64,000 nucleotides of DNA, taken from Alicyclobacillus sp. SO9 (GTDB lineage: Bacteria; Bacillota; Bacilli; Alicyclobacillales; Alicyclobacillaceae). Each line of letters opens with the position of its first letter. Within the stretch, counting starts at the first letter, position 1. The position numbers and the translations under genes were made by a program. Of this stretch, positions 2,048 through 59,150 are shown piece after piece. The stretch is from positions 5,022,001 to 5,086,000 of the forward strand of contig NZ_CP066339.1 in NCBI RefSeq assembly GCF_016406125.1. The letters are read 5' to 3'. The notes beneath the pieces were generated by a model that was given only the letters and a program-made list of their open reading frames with translations, was not told the DNA's origin and searched no databases.

Positions 2048-2996
2048 AGAGTCATTGGAGTGCCGAAAACAACTGAACAAGAAGGAGAAGAAGGAAGATA
2101 AACGGGATAACCCGTTTATCCACCCTCCAAGGTAAAAAAGCAGCGGAAATGGACCAGATTCCTTTTAGCGCAGAAGCTCACCGCCCAGGCTAGCCAATCT
2201 GGAGCCCCGGCCTTCACAAAACAGCCACAAAGCAACCTGCTATCCGACGCGAATGTGGCGGAACTGTGTCGGGAGGCTCAATGAGGGGTGTAGAGCAGAA
2301 AATAGCGATCCCACAAGTGCTTATGTGAAATAAACCTGTCGCTCGACGGAAATAAGCATTCGAGAAGAGCTTATCACCCCAAAATCCTCCGAAAACGGGG
2401 GCAAAACAACAGATAAGCTTGTCTCAAGCGCTTATTTCGACCGAACAGCTTCAATGTCAGCAAATAAGCTCCTCTCGGATCTCTATTTGACGGCGACTCT
2501 TGCCTGCGACTCCTCTGAGATGCCCCTTAGCAGAGAGTCATTGGAGTGCCGAAAACAACAGAACAGGAAGGAAAAGAAGGAAGATAAACGGGAACCGTTT
2601 ATCCACCCTCCAAGGTAAAAAAGCAGCGGAAATGGACCAGATTCCTTTTGGCGCAGAAGCTCACCGCCCAGGCTAGCCAATCTGGAGCCCCGGCGTTCAC
2701 AAAACAGCCACAAAGCAACCTGCTATCCGACGCGAATGTGGCGGAACTGTGTCGGGAGGCTCAATGAGGGGTGTAGAGCAGAAAATAGCGATCCCACAAG
2801 TGCTTATTTGAAATAAACCTGTCGCTCGACGGAAATAAGCATTCGAGAAGAGCTTATCACCCCAAAATCCTCCAAAAACGGGGGCAAAACAACAGATAAG
2901 CTTGTCTCAAGCGCTTATTTCGACCGAACAGCTTCAATTTCAGCAAATAAGCTCCTCTCGGATCTCTATTTGACGGCGACTCTTGCCTGCGACTCT
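2048..2996. repeat. Array A1: two ~466-bp direct copies carrying 8 copies of a 23-bp dyad
   Basis: The segment 2048-2513 is repeated almost exactly at 2534-2996. Each copy carries four 23-bp dyads of the form ATAAGC-N11-GCTTAT or ATAGCGATC-N8-GCTTAT, starting at 2302, 2352, 2413, 2464 and again at 2785, 2835, 2896, 2947. Start-to-start spacings are 50, 61 and 51 in both copies. The copies differ by a few bases (for example CGGGATAACCCG against CGGGAACCG). I see no convincing gene here. The array lies between convergent genes, and the same dyad recurs at 10.9-11.9 and 57.5-58.5 kb. Confidence 0.9.
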
Positions 2997-3125
2997 TGCC
3001 TGCGACTCCTGCCTGCGACTCCTGCCTGCGACTCCTGCCTGCGACTCCTGCCTGCTCCTCTGCTCCTCTGCTCCTCTGCTCCTCTGCTCCTCTGCTCCTC
3101 TGCTCCTCTGCTCCTCTGTTCCTCC
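2976..3125. repeat. Short tandem repeats: 13-bp x6 then 8-bp x8-9
   Basis: Six 13-bp units (gcgactcctgcct and close variants) run from 2976 to 3053. Eight exact 8-bp units gctcctct follow to 3117, then one variant unit. The block adjoins array A1 and ends 64 bases from the prmC stop codon. It opens several apparent reading frames that are repeat artefacts. Confidence 0.92.
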
Positions 3126-10940: not shown

Positions 10941-11570
10941 ATAAGACTTTCGGAGGAGCTTATTTCGGCGGTTTCCGGTGTAAGTAGCAGAATAGCGATC
11001 CGGGAGGAGCTTATCTGTAGCCAAGGCATCCCGAACCGGGGTGCATAGGCGAGATAAGACTTCCGGAGGAGCTTATTTCGCCGGTTTTCGGTGCAAATAG
11101 CGGAATAGCGATCCGAGGGGAGCTTATTTGCGGCCAAGGCACCCGAACCAGGGTACGCAGCTGTGCAAATGCTCGCGGCGGCGGGGCCCCGGTCTCGCCA
11201 TCACTGATGGAGTCGAGGATAAGCGTTTGAAAAACGCTTATCTTCAACATTTGCGGGTACGAATAGTAAATAGCGATCCGGGAGGAGCTTATCTGTAGCC
11301 AAGGCATTCCGAACCGGGGTGCATAGGCGAGATAAGACTTCCGGAGGAGCTTATTTCGCCGGTTTTTGGTGCAAATAGCGGAATAGCGATCCCAGACGAG
11401 CTTATTTGCGGCCAAGGCACCCGAACCAGGGTACGCAGCTGTGCAAATGCTCGCGGCGGCGGGGCCCCGGTCTCGCCATCACTGATGGAGTCGAGGATAA
11501 GCGTTTGAAAAACGCTTATCTTCAACATTTGCGGGTACGAATAGTAAATAGCGATCCGGGAGGAGCTTAT
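10941..11570. repeat. Array A2: 10 copies of the 23-bp dyad in a 278-bp tandem unit
   Basis: Dyads of type ATAAGAC...GAGCTTAT and ATAGCGATCC...GAGCTTAT start at 10941, 10992, 11054, 11105, 11219, 11270, 11332, 11383, 11497 and 11548. Spacings are 51-62-51, then 114, then 51-62-51, then 114, then 51. The underlying 278-bp unit is duplicated (compare 11041-11318 with 11319-11596). The dyads at 11219 and 11497 are near-perfect hairpins: ATAAGCGTTT, GAA, AAACGCTTAT. No gene is credible in this stretch. Confidence 0.9.
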
Positions 11571-11684
11571 CTGTAGCCAAGGCATTCCGAACCGGGGTAC
11601 GCAGCTGTGCAAACGCTCGCGCGGGCCGATCCTGAATCAGCAGCGATTCGGTTCGGGGGCGACACTCGTTCGTTGTCACGCTGG

Positions 11685-11926
11685 TTAGTGATCCTTTTGA
11701 TCCTTATCATGATGGCCTCCACATGATAGTGATCCATTCGATAACTATCATGTGGAGGCCGCCTGACATAGTGATCCCGTTGCTCCCTATCATCCACACT
11801 CCATTTTGCCGTTGCCGAGATTAGTGTCCATTTATGACACTAATGCCTCAGCTAAGGGGCCATTAGGGATCATTGCGATCACAATTGCATTGCCTCTCCG
11901 ACAATAGGGATCTTTCGAGGCACTAA
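11685..11926. repeat. Array B1: 6 copies of the 23-bp dyad, B type
   Basis: Dyads start at 11685, 11726, 11768, 11821, 11863 and 11904. The type form is ATAGTGATC-N5-GATCACTAT with TTA or TAA variants at the ends. Spacings are 41, 42, 53, 42, 41, identical to those of array B2 at 57.5 kb although the sequences have diverged. From 11927 to 12155 I see no feature beyond low-grade repeats. Confidence 0.88.
11714..11760. repeat. 47-bp palindrome centred on a B-type dyad
   Basis: Perfect 17-bp arms, GGCCTCCACATGATAGT at 11714-11730 and its reverse complement at 11744-11760, enclose 13 bases. The second dyad of array B1 (11726-11748) forms the core, so here the dyad symmetry has been extended outward by 12 bp on each side. 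Confidence 0.92.
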
Positions 11927-16961: not shown

Positions 16962-18602
<1,641 letters not shown>

Positions 18603-18649
18603 TCAAACTTGTCCCAAAAGGGCCATTCCAACGCGTCTGTCTGGCATAC

Positions 18650-18680
18650 AAAAACAGCGTTCTGGCAAATACCAGAACGC
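18650..18680 (-). terminator. Terminator in the rpoE-pyrG gap, possible pyrG attenuator
   Basis: On the minus strand GCGTTCTGG and CCAGAACGC pair around TATTTG and are followed by TGTTTTTG. It lies 57 bases after the rpoE stop and ~60 bases before pyrG. B. subtilis pyrG is controlled by a leader attenuator with a 5' G-run, but I do not find the matching GGGC transcript start, so simple rpoE termination is equally likely. Confidence 0.7.
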
Positions 18681-18737
18681 AACTGACACACTTAGAAAGC
18701 ATATCCTAACGGGATGTATCAGATAATCTATGAAGTT

Positions 18738-19298
18738 TTACAGCGATTCGTCCTCGTCTTCACTTTCATCTTCTTCTTCGTCGTCATCATCGTTGTCTTC
18801 ATCATCAGAAAACTCACCATCGTCATCATCCGAGAAGTCTTCGTCTGATTCAGAATCGTCGTCCGCGTAATCGTCGTCGTCCGATTCGGAATCATCGTCC
18901 AATAATGGCGACAGTTCGTCATCATCGCTGTCGATCTCTAATTCATCCGTGTCATCCAAACCGTCTTCATCGTCATCACTAAAGGCATCCCCGGATTTAC
19001 GCACAAAGCGCTTGCTGGTGAGCGATTTCTCTTGAGTTCGATCTGCAGGATACCAACGCTTCAAACCCCAGACATTTTGACCCAGGCACAGAAATCGTCC
19101 ATCAATGTTGAGTTCTGTATAGACGCGTGCGATGACGGCCATAGCCTCGTCTTCAGTCATTCCACGCAGGTCTTGAATTTCCTTCATGAGATCGCGAAAA
19201 TACATCGGGTCCTTCGATTGCTTAAGAACCTCATAAGCCAACTCGACGAGTGCCATGTTCTGAATCTCATTCTGTGACTTTGACAGCGCAACTGCCAT
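18738..19298 (-). CDS. rpoE: RNA polymerase delta subunit
   Basis: Delta is the Firmicute-specific subunit that speeds RNA polymerase recycling and promoter selectivity. The 186-residue protein has the folded N-terminal HARE-HTH domain (MALVELAYEVLKQSKDPMYFRDLMKEI; GRFLCLGQNVWGLKRWYP) to about residue 95 and then a disordered tail made almost entirely of Asp, Glu and Ser, the family signature. A TGCTATAAT promoter lies about 140 bases upstream. Confidence 0.95.
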   Translation of the reverse strand: MAVALSKSQNEIQNMALVELAYEVLKQSKDPMYFRDLMKEIQDLRGMTEDEAMAVIARVYTELNIDGRFLCLGQNVWGLKRWYPADRTQEKSLTSKRFVRKSGDAFSDDDEDGLDDTDELEIDSDDDELSPLLDDDSESDDDDYADDDSESDEDFSDDDDGEFSDDEDNDDDDEEEDESEDEDESL

Positions 19299-19435
19299 CG
19301 AAAACTCCTCCTCAAAAACTGGTCAGAGGGCCTTTCCCTGCCCCTGACTATATCTATCCAACTGGTTCTAAAATAATGGTTGAAGCATGAACACCGAGGT
19401 AATTCGTGTGTGTGCAGAATTTTAATACGTGCGAC

Positions 19436-19444
19436 ATTATAGCA
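19436..19444 (-). promoter_or_regulatory. Extended -10 promoter of rpoE
   Basis: Minus-strand TGTGCTATAATG in the meaB-rpoE gap. It starts just after the meaB stop and gives rpoE its own transcript with a ~130-base leader. Confidence 0.55.
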
Positions 19445-19460
19445 CAATCCTTTTGTTTCG

Positions 19461-20408
19461 TCACAACTGTTTCCAAGGAAAGTTTGTCAGAATGTTTTCT
19501 GCACTTTGATAGGGGTCCTGACTCAAGTCTTCCTCCAGAATCCTCTTCCATTCTGTATCTTCTTTTGCCCGCTTCCTGACATACTCTGAGAGCGCTGCGT
19601 CAACCAGTTTCAGCGTCTCATCCCGGTGCCGGTTGCGTCGGCGCTGTTCCCAGAAACCCGACTCATGCAAGTGCTCATAGTGACGTGTCAAAGCCTGCCA
19701 CAGTTCTTCCATCCCTTCTCCTGCTACGGCCTTCGCTGAGACAATAGGCGGAAGCCAGTTTTCACGCAGGAGTGTTTTCTCGTGAAGCATCAACCGGAGC
19801 TCCTGAATCAGTGTATCTGAGCCAGGCAAATCTCGTTTGTTGACAAGAAACAAGTGGGCAATCTCCATAATACCAGCCTTTGCAGTCTGTACATCGTCAC
19901 CGGCACCCGGGGTCAGTACCAATACAACAGAATCTGCCACCTGCATCACGTCAAGTTCAGCCTGCCCCACGCCGACCGTTTCCAGAAAAATCACGTCACA
20001 GCCTGACGCTTCGAGTACATACAGCATTTCGCGCGTGGATTTCCCGATGCCTCCGAGGCCGCCCCGACTCCCGACGCTTCGAATGTACACGCCAGGGTCT
20101 GTGCTGTGCTTCGTCATGCGCACCCTGTCTCCGAGCAAGGCACCACCTGAAAATGGACTTGACGGATCGACAGCAAGTACACCCACTCGCAAACCTTGTT
20201 TGCGGACAAAATCTATCATTTTGTCTACCAGTGTGCTTTTCCCTGCCCCGGGCGATCCCGTAAAACCAACGACTTGCACCTTCCCGCTGTATGTATACAG
20301 GGATTCCAACAGCGCACGTTTGTCTGGGGCATTGTTATCAATCAGAGTCAGAGCCCGTGCCACAGCGCGGGGCTCCCCTCTTAAAATCCGGTTAAGCAGC
20401 GGGTGCAT
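19461..20408 (-). CDS. meaB: MeaB/ArgK-type G-protein chaperone of a B12 acyl-CoA mutase
   Basis: MeaB GTPases guard and reload adenosylcobalamin mutases such as methylmalonyl-CoA or isobutyryl-CoA mutase. The 315-residue protein shows the P-loop FTGSPGAGKSTL, VLAVDPSSPFSGGALLGDRVRM, FLETVGVGQAE, and the G4 motif NKRD. ATG at 20408 is preferred because AAGGGTGA precedes it; an in-frame GTG lies inside that site. It is the last gene of the acyl-CoA block. No mutase gene is within the window, so the partner lies elsewhere. Confidence 0.9.
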   Translation of the reverse strand: MHPLLNRILRGEPRAVARALTLIDNNAPDKRALLESLYTYSGKVQVVGFTGSPGAGKSTLVDKMIDFVRKQGLRVGVLAVDPSSPFSGGALLGDRVRMTKHSTDPGVYIRSVGSRGGLGGIGKSTREMLYVLEASGCDVIFLETVGVGQAELDVMQVADSVVLVLTPGAGDDVQTAKAGIMEIAHLFLVNKRDLPGSDTLIQELRLMLHEKTLLRENWLPPIVSAKAVAGEGMEELWQALTRHYEHLHESGFWEQRRRNRHRDETLKLVDAALSEYVRKRAKEDTEWKRILEEDLSQDPYQSAENILTNFPWKQL

Positions 20409-55640: not shown

Positions 55641-56357
55641 GTGTGTTGTGAAGGAAGTTACTGTGAGGGAAGTTGCTGCTCAACTGACAGCCCGTGTGTG
55701 CGCCGCGTTCCGATATTTGCTCATCTCAACAATCACGAGGTGGATTTGCTGCAAGCATCCATCAAGTCCATTTCATATCGCAAAGGAGATTATATTTTTC
55801 GAAGTGATGAGCCATCCGATACACTGCATATCGTGAATTACGGGGCCGTTAAAATCTTCACTCTCTCTGAAGCCGGCAAAGAGCATATCCTGCGCTTTTT
55901 ATTTCCTGGGGATTTTGCCGGGCAGTTTGCGATGTTTCAACAACAGCGTCACTATGCCAATGCTGTAGCTCTCGAAAACACGTCAATCTGCCACATCCAC
56001 AGAGATGATTTAAAAAGAATTTTGGAATCCAATCCAGAGATGACCTATAGATTTATGGCCGCCCTTACGGAACGACTGCGTGAAGCAGACGAATGGGCAG
56101 GGGCCATTAGCATGCTTGATGTAGAAAGCCGCTTAGCAAAGACCCTGCTTTTGTTTCGGCAAAAGCATGCACTCGGGGATATGCTGGAACTTCCCGTTAC
56201 AAAACGCGATTTTGCATCCCTGATTGGTATAACACCAGAAACACTAAGTCGGAAGCTGGCAGTCTTTGAAACGGAAAACATCATTGAATTAAAAGGAAAA
56301 AAAGGCATTAAACTCATAGACCCAAGTGCCCTTGAAGAGTTGTCGGGCGCCGTGTAA
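55641..56357 (+). CDS. Crp/Fnr family regulator with Cys-rich N-terminus
   Basis: A 238-residue regulator. GTG at 55641 is preceded by GAGGG seven bases upstream. The first 20 residues carry cysteines at 2, 3, 8, 12, 13 and 20 (MCCEGSYCEGSCCSTDSPC), which suggests a 4Fe-4S or metal redox sensor as in FNR. Then comes a cNMP-like beta barrel (FRSDEPSDTLHIVNYGAVKIF, FLFPGDFAGQFAMFQ), the dimer helix, and an HTH with recognition region RDFASLIGITPETLSRKLAVFE. It probably controls the neighbouring small gene and itself. Confidence 0.9.
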   Translation: MCCEGSYCEGSCCSTDSPCVRRVPIFAHLNNHEVDLLQASIKSISYRKGDYIFRSDEPSDTLHIVNYGAVKIFTLSEAGKEHILRFLFPGDFAGQFAMFQQQRHYANAVALENTSICHIHRDDLKRILESNPEMTYRFMAALTERLREADEWAGAISMLDVESRLAKTLLLFRQKHALGDMLELPVTKRDFASLIGITPETLSRKLAVFETENIIELKGKKGIKLIDPSALEELSGAV

Positions 56358-56751: not shown

Positions 56752-57420
56752 GTGGACTTCCACAATTCGTATGATAATCTCCTCAGTCGGCAAAAACAGA
56801 GTATTGACGCGGAAGTTGTAATCAGCCGCAAGTCCAGTTCGCAGCACGCAGAACGAGCATTTTTAAGAAACGTCTGGTGGCCTGCATTTCAAAACTTTGA
56901 CGGACTGCATCCAGAATACGAAATTCTTGACTTTAACGAGGGGCGCAGGCATATCGATTTTGCCTATATTCAGCCTCATTTTCGAGTCGCCATCGAGATC
57001 GATGGGATCGGACCGCACTGGAGGGATATATCCCAAGAGAGGTTCAGCGATCATTGCAATCGCCAAAATCATCTTATCATCGACGGATGGTACGTCCTGC
57101 GATTCACCTACATGGATGTGCAGCACAGACCAAGGCTCTGTCAACGCACCATCCAGCAACTTTTGGGGAGGCTGTCAGGCGATGCAGCCAGTGCAGTCAA
57201 TCAACTCCCTCTCATAGACAGAGAGATTGTCCGCTTTGTCTTGGGTCGGCCGTTCCCCGTCACGGTCGCAGAAACAGCCGCCCACATCCAACTGAAAAGA
57301 CACGCTACCATTCGCCATTTGAAGCTATTGACTGACTCCGGCTGGCTTGTACCAGCCAGCGGTACCCGACGAGTCCGCACCTACCGGATCCACCCTTCCT
57401 ATGCAGATGTGCGATTGTAG
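56752..57420 (+). CDS. Endonuclease-like (DUF559/Vsr-fold) protein with C-terminal winged helix
   Basis: 222 residues, GTG start behind AGGGG. Residues ~45-125 show a PD-(D/E)XK-like pattern: HPEYEILDFNEGRRHIDFAY, then VAIEIDGIGPHW, and RQNHLIIDGWYVLRFTYMDVQHRP, as in DUF559/Vsr-fold nucleases (candidate residues D in HIDFAY, E in AIEID). The C-terminal ~70 residues (VAETAAHIQLKRHATIRHLKLLTDSGWL) form a winged-helix DNA-binding domain. It lies directly upstream of array B2. A role linked to those repeats is speculation. Confidence 0.68.
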   Translation: MDFHNSYDNLLSRQKQSIDAEVVISRKSSSQHAERAFLRNVWWPAFQNFDGLHPEYEILDFNEGRRHIDFAYIQPHFRVAIEIDGIGPHWRDISQERFSDHCNRQNHLIIDGWYVLRFTYMDVQHRPRLCQRTIQQLLGRLSGDAASAVNQLPLIDREIVRFVLGRPFPVTVAETAAHIQLKRHATIRHLKLLTDSGWLVPASGTRRVRTYRIHPSYADVRL

Positions 57421-57444
57421 GGATTGCGGATGCTGGGATGCGAG

Positions 57445-57500
57445 GCTGGGATGCTGGGATGCTGGGATGCTGGGATGCTGGGATGCTGGGATGCTGGGAT
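57445..57500. repeat. 8-bp tandem repeat x7
   Basis: Seven exact gctgggat units begin 25 bases after the nuclease-like gene and run into array B2. Confidence 0.92.
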
Positions 57501-57501
57501 G

Positions 57502-58459
57502 CAATAGGGATCCTTTCTCTCACTAAGACACCACCGCCAATCGTTTAAGGATCCCATTGATCACTATCGCGGATTCCGGCCCAGGGATAGTGATCCCATC
57601 GATCCCTATCATGAAGCTGTTGCTGGCTCGCGACTCACATTAGTGATCGTTTGTGACCTTATTATTTCGAGCCCCCACTTGTTAATGATCTCTGCGATCA
57701 CTATCGCCGGCGAGCCCTGTCAATAGGGAGCTTTCCGATCACTATGTGGGAGTCAAAAGCGCTAGCAGGCCCCCTGCCGGTAGACCGACCACCACCGGGA
57801 CGCCGGGACGCATGGGACGCCGCGACGCGAGGCTGGGCCGCAATAGGGATCCTTTCTCTCACTAAGACACCACCACCAATCGTTTAAGGATCCCATTGAT
57901 CACTATCGCGGATTCCGGCCCAGGGATAGTGATCCCATCGATCCCTATCATGAAGCTGTTGCTGGCTCGCGACTCACATTAGTGATCGTTTGTGACCTTA
58001 TTATTTCGAGCCCCCACTTGTTAATGATCTCTGCGATCACTATCGCCGGCGAGCCCTGTCAATAGGGAGCTTTCCGATCACTATGTGGGAGTCAAAAGCG
58101 CTAGCAGGCCCCCTGCCGGTAGACCGACCACCACCGGGACGCCGGGACGCATGGGACGCCGCGACGCGAGGCTGGGCCGCAATAGGGATCCTTTCTCTCA
58201 CTAAGACACCACCACCAATCGTTTAAGGATCCCATTGATCACTATCGCGGATTCCGGCCCAGGGATAGTGATCCCATCGATCCCTATCATGAAGCTGTTG
58301 CTGGCTCGCGACTCACATTAGTGATCGTTTGTGACCTTATTATTTCGAGCCCCCACTTGTTAATGATCTCTGCGATCACTATCGCCGGCGAGCCCTGTCA
58401 ATAGGGAGCTTTCCGATCACTATGTGGGAGTCAAAAGCGCTAGCAGGCCCCCTGCCGCA
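57502..58459. repeat. Array B2: 339-bp unit x2.8 with 18 copies of the 23-bp dyad
   Basis: Units start at 57502, 57841 and 58180 with almost no differences. Each carries six dyads (57504, 57545, 57587, 57640, 57682, 57723, then +339 and +678) spaced 41, 42, 53, 42, 41. Forms include ATAGTGATC-N5-GATCCCTAT, TTAATGATC-N5-GATCACTAT and ATAGGGAGC-N5-GATCACTAT. A GGGACGC-rich linker closes the first two units; the third stops at the linker. No open frame here looks coding. Confidence 0.93.
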
Positions 58460-58573
58460 GCGCGATCGAAGGCCCACGCTGATTTTCAGGTTTGTACTTT
58501 TGATAAGTTTGTCTCCCTCAGTCCGCATCATGTAAAGTAGTATGTACAATTTAGTATTGAGGAGATGGCACCT

Positions 58574-58999: not shown

Positions 59000-59045
59000 T
59001 CCCACTTAGAATTATCCTCAGCTTTGCCAAAACCCGCGCACCCTG

Positions 59046-59150
59046 ACCTGTTCGTCTGACCTGTTCGTCTGACCTGTTCGTCTGACCTGTTCGTCTGACC
59101 TGTTCGTCTGACCTGACCTGTCCTGTCCTGTCCTGTCCTGTCTTGTCACT
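59046..59150. repeat. Tandem repeats: 13-bp x5 then 5-bp x8
   Basis: Five exact acctgttcgtctg units (59046-59110), then acctg/tcctg pentamers. The block sits just before the ribosome binding site region of the acyl-CoA synthetase gene. Confidence 0.9.

Follow-up and report, generated by a model that had tools for sequence, protein, structure and literature searches.

Arrays of palindromic dyads at whole-turn distances in Alicyclobacillus sp. SO9 and its relatives: putative binding sites of a dimeric protein

What holds short palindromes at nearly the same distances throughout a bacterial genome? The question is raised by positions 57504-58423 of the window (the whole stretch of 64,000 nucleotides analysed here), where three modules of six palindromic dyads each follow one another at a period of 339. 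The sequence-only reading of this DNA had proposed that the distances are near-integral helical turns, that the dyads of a module face one side of the helix around a centre of symmetry, and that a cooperative nucleoprotein structure results. We consider it rather probable (about 0.6) that these modules are binding-site arrays of a putative dimeric DNA-binding protein, with a role in chromosome organisation as the most likely one.

The dyads of this locus, called B, span 23 bp in a 9-5-9 layout (WTAGKGATC-N5-GATCMCTAW); in the one at 57587-57609, for example, the arms ATAGTGATC and GATCCCTAT flank a 5-base centre. The first module (57504-57745) has dyad starts at 57504, 57545, 57587, 57640, 57682 and 57723. 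A linker of 97 bp (57746-57842) separates it from the second (57843-58084; starts 57843, 57884, 57926, 57979, 58021 and 58062), and the third lies at 58182-58423 (starts 58182, 58223, 58265, 58318, 58360 and 58401). Over 300 bases, copies 2 and 3 are 99% and 96% identical to copy 1. A diverged six-dyad B module on the plus strand at 11685-11926 (starts 11685, 11726, 11768, 11821, 11863 and 11904) repeats the distances of the 57504 module, 41-42-53-42-41, and directly adjoins an array of the second dyad type, A. This A array (10941-11570) has dyads at 10941, 10992, 11054, 11105, 11219, 11270, 11332, 11383, 11497 and 11548, hence distances of 51-62-51-114-51-62-51-114-51. A four-dyad A module at 2302-2486 and its second copy at 2785-2969 both read 50-61-51. 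The spacings first reported for the window are thus confirmed: the B series at two diverged loci, and the A series 51-62-51 with its 50-61-51 variant and the 114 between modules.

The same arrangement recurs across the genome (5.29 Mb, two contigs). With up to two mismatches the B pattern has 507 matches against 1 for a reversed-pattern control, and the A pattern ATAAGC-N11-GCTTAT, with up to one mismatch, 166 against 6. Most of the 502 B dyads inspected are grouped as modules, at about 60 loci. In a first set of 56 loci plus the window, read at up to three mismatches, neighbouring dyads are 40 (once), 41 (172 times), 42 (76), 43 (1), 51 (1), 52 (2) or 53 (34) bp apart; the remaining distances up to 150 bp are mainly 93-97, where one weaker dyad is skipped, with 75, 87, 120 (twice) and 135. 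A second set of 24 further loci came from R1, a sequence-only model of B dyads 1-3 built from 36 loci, which has at least 150 matches in the genome (the best 150 of 1347 candidates, several of them overlapping or present on both strands). Dyads 4-6 lie outside this model, so that their positions are an independent check. Here the distances are 40 (1), 41 (67), 42 (40) and 53 (7), followed by 93-95 and a single 104. Over the two sets, all 402 neighbour distances of up to 65 bp (287 + 115) fall at 40-43 or 51-53, so the spacing of other modules is not spread evenly over the helical phases. Single off-class distances of 9, 19, 38 and 47 appear at up to five mismatches, a level at which the control pattern gives 51 matches.

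In total, 104 six-dyad modules were assembled over 60 loci, with one to five per locus; since the assembly rule extended modules only over distances of 40-43 or 51-54 bp, it is the distance counts that give the unconditioned evidence. The first locus set also held 12 lone dyads and groups of two to five. Spacer lengths within the 104 modules vary little (17-19, 17-20, 28-30, 18-19 and 18-19). The gaps between modules (below 1200 bp) are variable, 81 bp at the shortest and 866 bp at the longest; when a single gap is taken from each locus (29 gaps below 500 bp), these lean towards a phase of 10.4 bp (R 0.52, P 4e-4), a result which depends strongly on the period chosen. The A dyads behave similarly: at up to two mismatches, all 58 distances up to 65 bp are 50-51 or 61-63, and at three mismatches six distances of 10-40 bp appear, with 108 control matches against 332.

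Constant distances could simply be a consequence of common descent. Among 36 B loci, mean pairwise identity is 0.80 in the dyads and 0.48 in the spacers, and homology dies away about 10 bp beyond dyads 1 and 6, which also bears on the defined ends expected of MITE-type elements. The claim that the spacers are unconserved fails over these 36 loci, which share a weak spacer consensus, and perhaps stands for the two diverged loci of the window. Given this consensus and the fading homology outside the dyads, the B modules of the SO9 genome are one dispersed homologous family whose equal spacing is partly inherited. One explanation takes descent as sufficient: a selfish or neutral satellite, with a 240-bp unit spread by duplication and conversion, would carry its spacing as a functionless relic. 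The homology of the modules at 60 loci, their frequent tandem arrangement and the near-identity within 57504-58423 agree with it, as do some near-identical A arrays which adjoin probable rRNA operons and may have been co-copied with them (23S and 5S are confirmed at one locus, L052). However, spacers that are only 48% identical have kept a near-constant length, whereas the gaps between modules range from 81 to 866 bp. The comparison with other genera, described below, weighs further against a satellite, which we regard as unlikely.

Are the dyads recognised as duplex DNA or do they act as hairpins? In the latter case the two arms should covary. They do not: complementary cells number 1439 in the 36-locus set of B dyads (1456 expected, sd 8.4), 2371 over 60 loci (2406 expected, sd 11) and 467 for the A dyads of 20 loci (479 expected, sd 10). 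If the slight B deficit means anything, it is that a strong arm makes up for a weak one. Since the arms covary in neither family, hairpin pairing is not the trait under selection, and the pattern suits the half-sites of a dimeric protein; the result favours putative protein sites over hairpins. A hairpin or cruciform reading was rejected on this ground.

A related possibility is an element of the REP/BIME/REPIN type, read as a hairpin of single-stranded DNA or RNA. The dyads resemble such elements as short palindromes clustered between genes, and a stem of 9 with a loop of 5 matches the stems of 8-9 and loops of 4-5 given for CGTC REPs in one study (PMC3733652); regularly spaced REPs within BIMEs are likewise described in another (PMC2817692). 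Against this stand the independent arms of both SO9 families and the Rfam 15 search of seven loci, in which no array matched above the gathering score and the only two matches were rRNA, both in L052. Furthermore, the RAYT/Y1 transposase family PF01797 has no match in the SO9 genome and has matches in 5 of 14 control genomes, and the REP/REPIN assignment was rejected for want of this enzyme. In PMC3733652, CGTC REPs are marked as lacking a transposase association, so that the absence of Y1 is not decisive for that class. No constant tag of the GTAG or CGTC type is apparent beside the six dyads in the aligned spacers. Taken together, we hold a REP-type origin to be very improbable.

Relatives of SO9 carry arrays with other dyads. 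The SO9 B pattern itself hardly exceeds background in 60 relatives, with 0-6 matches against 0-2 for the control, and R1 finds a single match among 298 further genomes of the class, in G187; this is a coding-looking repeat and was rejected as an array. A stretch of G007, however, contains an array of a different dyad at period 53 without indels. Its pattern, TWAGGCA-N7-TGCCTWA, has 332 matches in G007 against 2 for the control, compared with 0 against 6 in SO9 and 3 against 6 in G020, which belongs to the same genus as G007. Among 85 distances in G007 (94 matches, control 12), 79 are 53, five are 52 and one is 106. The G002 dyad, CTTACGCAC-N5-GTGCGTAAG, is spaced at 52 (12) or 53 (5).

Further arrays were found with R2, a covariance model built on three dyads of this kind. 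Within the family it matches seven of 41 genomes (G007, G002, G015, G017, G036, G024 and G035) and none of the other 34; at a stricter limit it matches 3 of 378 class genomes, all three in the same family. Because R2 fails to detect the SO9 genome, its silence elsewhere means little. A tandem-repeat search found no such array in G020 and G010 (160 kb each), G032 (100 kb) and G026 (60 kb); the same search missed the G024 arrays (60 kb; stretch L221) that R2 later found. The trait appears patchy across the family and the class. R2 itself requires 52-53, so the uniform 52-53 arrays are partly selected by it, while the 41-42-52, 51-62 and 40-53 arrays are not.

The non-uniform arrays fall into the distance classes already seen in SO9. 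In G017 (TWAGTCG arms) the counts are 41 (12), 42 (12), 52 (12), 51 (1) and 62 (1), in a 41-42-52 pattern, and one array has about thirty dyads. The WTAAGGCA arms of G036, with one locus from G035, lie at 51 (12) or 62 (7), and their 51-62-51 order is that of the SO9 family A module. A second family in G002 and G024, ATAACGCG, has 40 (13), 41 (3), 50 (1), 52 (2) and 53 (13), often as 53-40-40-53. The G015 dyad ATAAGSCGG is spaced uniformly, at 52 (18) and 51 (1), with off-class distances of 19, 21 and 31 appearing at five mismatches. G002 and G017 are of one genus and use different dyads, while A and B occupy one genome with different distances. The relatives yield 253 distances between 38 and 64 bp, with none at 43-49 and none at 54-60. 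The recurrence of these classes with other dyads in other genera tells against a functionless satellite. To judge from these comparisons, the geometry is kept while the dyad sequence turns over; this bears out the earlier proposal that the distance itself is maintained as the sequence diverges, both in the spacers of SO9, 48% identical and of near-constant length, and in the same classes built from other dyads elsewhere.

A de novo search for dyad chains, at its loosest four-dyad setting, matches 4 of 5 SO9 loci and 3 of 16 stretches from relatives, namely L206 (the G007 array), L197 and L204. The last of these, from G032, carries a CRISPR-like array at 18230-19659 with a 37-base repeat and differing spacers. 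The SO9 arrays look different, with degenerate dyads and spacers that share a consensus; a CRISPR assignment was rejected, and no cas genes occur among the 25 commonest families listed per set for 128 flanking genes. A plasmid or phage origin was rejected as well: one B module has no match in plasmids or phages, the B pair pattern has none in viral contigs, and one G007 and one G002 array have none in plasmids. The B pair pattern also has no match in a set of genome contigs, from which near relatives were possibly left out.

How closely do the distances follow the helix? Six distance classes together have a best period of 10.40 (scan of 8-14 bp) with an offset of -0.01, and P values of 3e-4 at 10.4 and 7e-4 at 10.5 (2e-4 and 7e-4 with exact means). 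The four SO9 classes alone give a modest result (P 0.004 at 10.4 bp, 0.012 at 10.5). For 13 class means, the best period in the same scan range is 10.35 bp; at 10.5 the P value is 2.5e-6, and at 10.4 not one of 400,000 random draws reaches the observed value. These P values are too small, since the classes are not independent by descent and different genera could share ancestral distances. The distances of 40-43, 50-53 and 60-63 bp correspond to 4, 5 and 6 turns, as the sequence-only reading had suggested for the window. Its two further geometric claims also agree with the data: whole-turn distances put the dyads of a module on the same side of the helix, and the mirror order 41-42-53-42-41, with 51-62-51 and, in relatives, 53-40-40-53, gives the module a centre of symmetry.

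The position of the arrays relative to genes informs on their role. The arrays are intergenic. Among 89 SO9 arrays of both types, 36 lie in convergent spacers and 5 in divergent ones (P 8e-7), 34 are between co-directional genes and 14 are unplaced for lack of a called gene on one side. The calls come from a simple codon model, and three arrays overlap a called gene. An earlier version of this count gave 25 convergent and 5 divergent. Could the dyads be operator arrays of a transcription factor that controls the neighbouring genes? Dyads of this size and symmetry are typical of operators, and the 34 arrays in co-directional spacers would suit such a function. However, divergent spacers hold only 5 of the 89 arrays against the 36 in convergent ones, and no promoter-like or terminator-like match was found at 57400-58560. 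In addition, no gene family stands out as a partner. Of 158 flanking genes, 128 were scanned against Pfam (30 were left out, 12 of them mostly cut by locus ends) and judged among the 25 commonest families per set, of which AAA_16 (4/66) and Aminotran_1_2 (4/62) are the most frequent; a MerR DNA-binding domain occurs in 2/66. Operator arrays are in our view an improbable explanation, although a role in the expression of a single gene is possible, given the 34 co-directional and 14 unplaced cases.

The distribution along the chromosome is also uneven. The 59 B loci analysed here have modules of five or more dyads, and their median distance from dnaA (C1:367) is 501 kb (KS P 1.7e-6); 18 fall in the first 500 kb, against a single one in 2.5-3.0 Mb. 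This clustering concerns SO9 B loci and is measured against a uniform distribution. The arrays of G007 and G002, among the matches listed, look spread out. An origin-leaning and terminus-poor distribution would be expected if the dyads were sites of a nucleoid-occlusion or segregation factor (Noc- or SlmA-like) facing the membrane or the division machinery, and SlmA sites are described as more abundant near the origin in one paper (PMC4117426). Yet Noc (TIGR04285) scores above cut-off in 39 of the 41 family genomes, SO9 included, with or without detected arrays, so that its presence does not track them; Noc was rejected as the cause of the patchy occurrence of arrays. The sites of Noc and SlmA are moreover single and short, which long phased arrays do not resemble, though the two kinds of site are alike in being dispersed, sequence-specific and, for the SO9 B loci, richer near the origin. 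We think a factor of this kind unlikely.

The orientation of the arrays relative to the replichore looks polar in G007 and G002 among the matches listed (P 2e-4 and 0.01, with the origin inferred from Noc), a polarity that GC skew or strand composition could explain; in SO9 it is weak (23:16 and 8:13).

Transposase genes next to arrays are few (DDE_Tnp_1 2/66, Transposase_mut 1/66, IS110 type 2/62). As arrays adjoining them are a minority, a mobile-element reading was rejected. Transposase-like genes by arrays lie at L027:1980-3647 and L033:3316-4563, with copies in L069, L060 and L064; copies elsewhere are 99.5-100% identical.

For binding-site arrays of a dimeric protein, the preferred reading, the following picture can be drawn. 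One dimer would occupy each 23-bp dyad and read its two 9-bp half-sites independently, as the absence of arm covariation suggests. Distances of 4, 5 or 6 turns (40-43, 50-53 and 60-63 bp) would then place the dimers of an array on one helix face. Since 4, 5 or 6 turns are tolerated and half turns are not, the requirement is likely to be one of facing and not of fixed side-by-side contact: neighbouring dimers may pair across bent or looped DNA, or may all dock on one partner surface. The mirror-symmetric modules (41-42-53-42-41, 51-62-51 and 53-40-40-53) point to a complete complex with two-fold symmetry. The intergenic location, the convergent preference and the origin-leaning B loci make an organising role in the chromosome, for instance as a loop or supercoil anchor at the ends of transcription units, more likely than promoter control. 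Finally, dyads are alike within a genome and differ between genera and even between congeneric species, which suggests that site and binding protein change together.

Several known systems share part of this behaviour. Lambda repressor dimers reportedly cooperate at separations of integral turns by bending the intervening DNA (Hochschild and Ptashne, 1986), and the site separations found here are likewise whole helical turns. In contrast to the lambda case, the arrays of SO9 and its relatives are natural, contain from four to about thirty dyads at dozens of loci, lie mostly off promoters and belong to a protein that is itself putative. Lrp-type regulators such as BarR and Sa-Lrp also bind several sites in helical phase; they differ in regulating promoters at few loci, and we know of no interspersed site family for them. 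BIME/REP clusters are similar in being intergenic, present many times per chromosome and composed of regularly spaced palindromic units, and BIMEs are reported as protein-binding sites (PMC2817692). The SO9 arrays differ from them by the lack of hairpin covariation and of a Y1 transposase, by distances of 4, 5 and 6 turns and by their mirror-symmetric modules. They are best described as a variant of interspersed intergenic palindromic repeats, set apart from REP/BIME by independent arms and by the absence of a Y1 transposase; the inferred scaffold, if shown, would be a class of its own.

In a more tentative extension, the arrays may represent a hitherto undescribed type of nucleoprotein scaffold on the chromosomes of a single family of spore-forming Bacillota, with a conserved geometry and dyads that co-evolve with a fast-changing dimeric protein; no description of such arrays was found in the open-access literature. 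This would recall eukaryotic centromeres, where satellite DNA and its binding proteins turn over together. A distance conserved while the sequence changes is evidence for selection on helical phase itself, which is seldom visible in genomes. The reading predicts a new site-specific protein for which each chromosome has dozens of binding platforms built in, and half-turn insertions into natural arrays are ready-made tests of it. If site and protein do change together, one family offers several natural pairs in which the evolution of DNA specificity and of chromosome organisation could be followed.

Some individual loci deserve mention. The SO9 array at C1:2404200 and one from G007 are flanked by orthologues, the genes for dUTPase and dipicolinate synthase A; in the stretches concerned (L184:1401-1642 in SO9, L206:16824-17641 in G007) different dyads are placed between the same orthologues, M16 peptidase and dUTPase / dipicolinate synthase A. 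This shared setting is one case and may be a coincidence. The dipicolinate synthase gene beside the array, together with the Bacillota proteins that head the listed matches of one window protein among named records, makes SO9 probably a spore-former. An A module at L052:1661-1846 (C1:17160-17345) lies some 510 bp downstream of the rRNA genes at L052:1-1147 (23S and 5S), and L058, L062, L063 and L070 have long homology with L052 beside their A modules, which probably also follow rRNA operons. A and B arrays share one spacer at five places (window 10941-11926, L024, L041, L061 and L073), seemingly an often repeated arrangement.

In the window, a CRP-family regulator gene (55641-56354; cNMP and HTH_Crp_2 domains) lies about 1.1 kb upstream of the 57504 array, with no evident link to it. 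The second contig, of 90 kb, encodes a protein with a DnaA-like domain at G000:C2:4038-4460 (L208) in an open frame of 324 aa. Short tandem repeats with units of 5-13 bases occur near arrays or in other spacers, in the window at 57428-57502, 59043-59147 and 2976-3124; the units seen there are GGATGCTG, CTGACCTGTTCGT, CTGTC, GCGACTCCTGCCT and CTGCTCCT.
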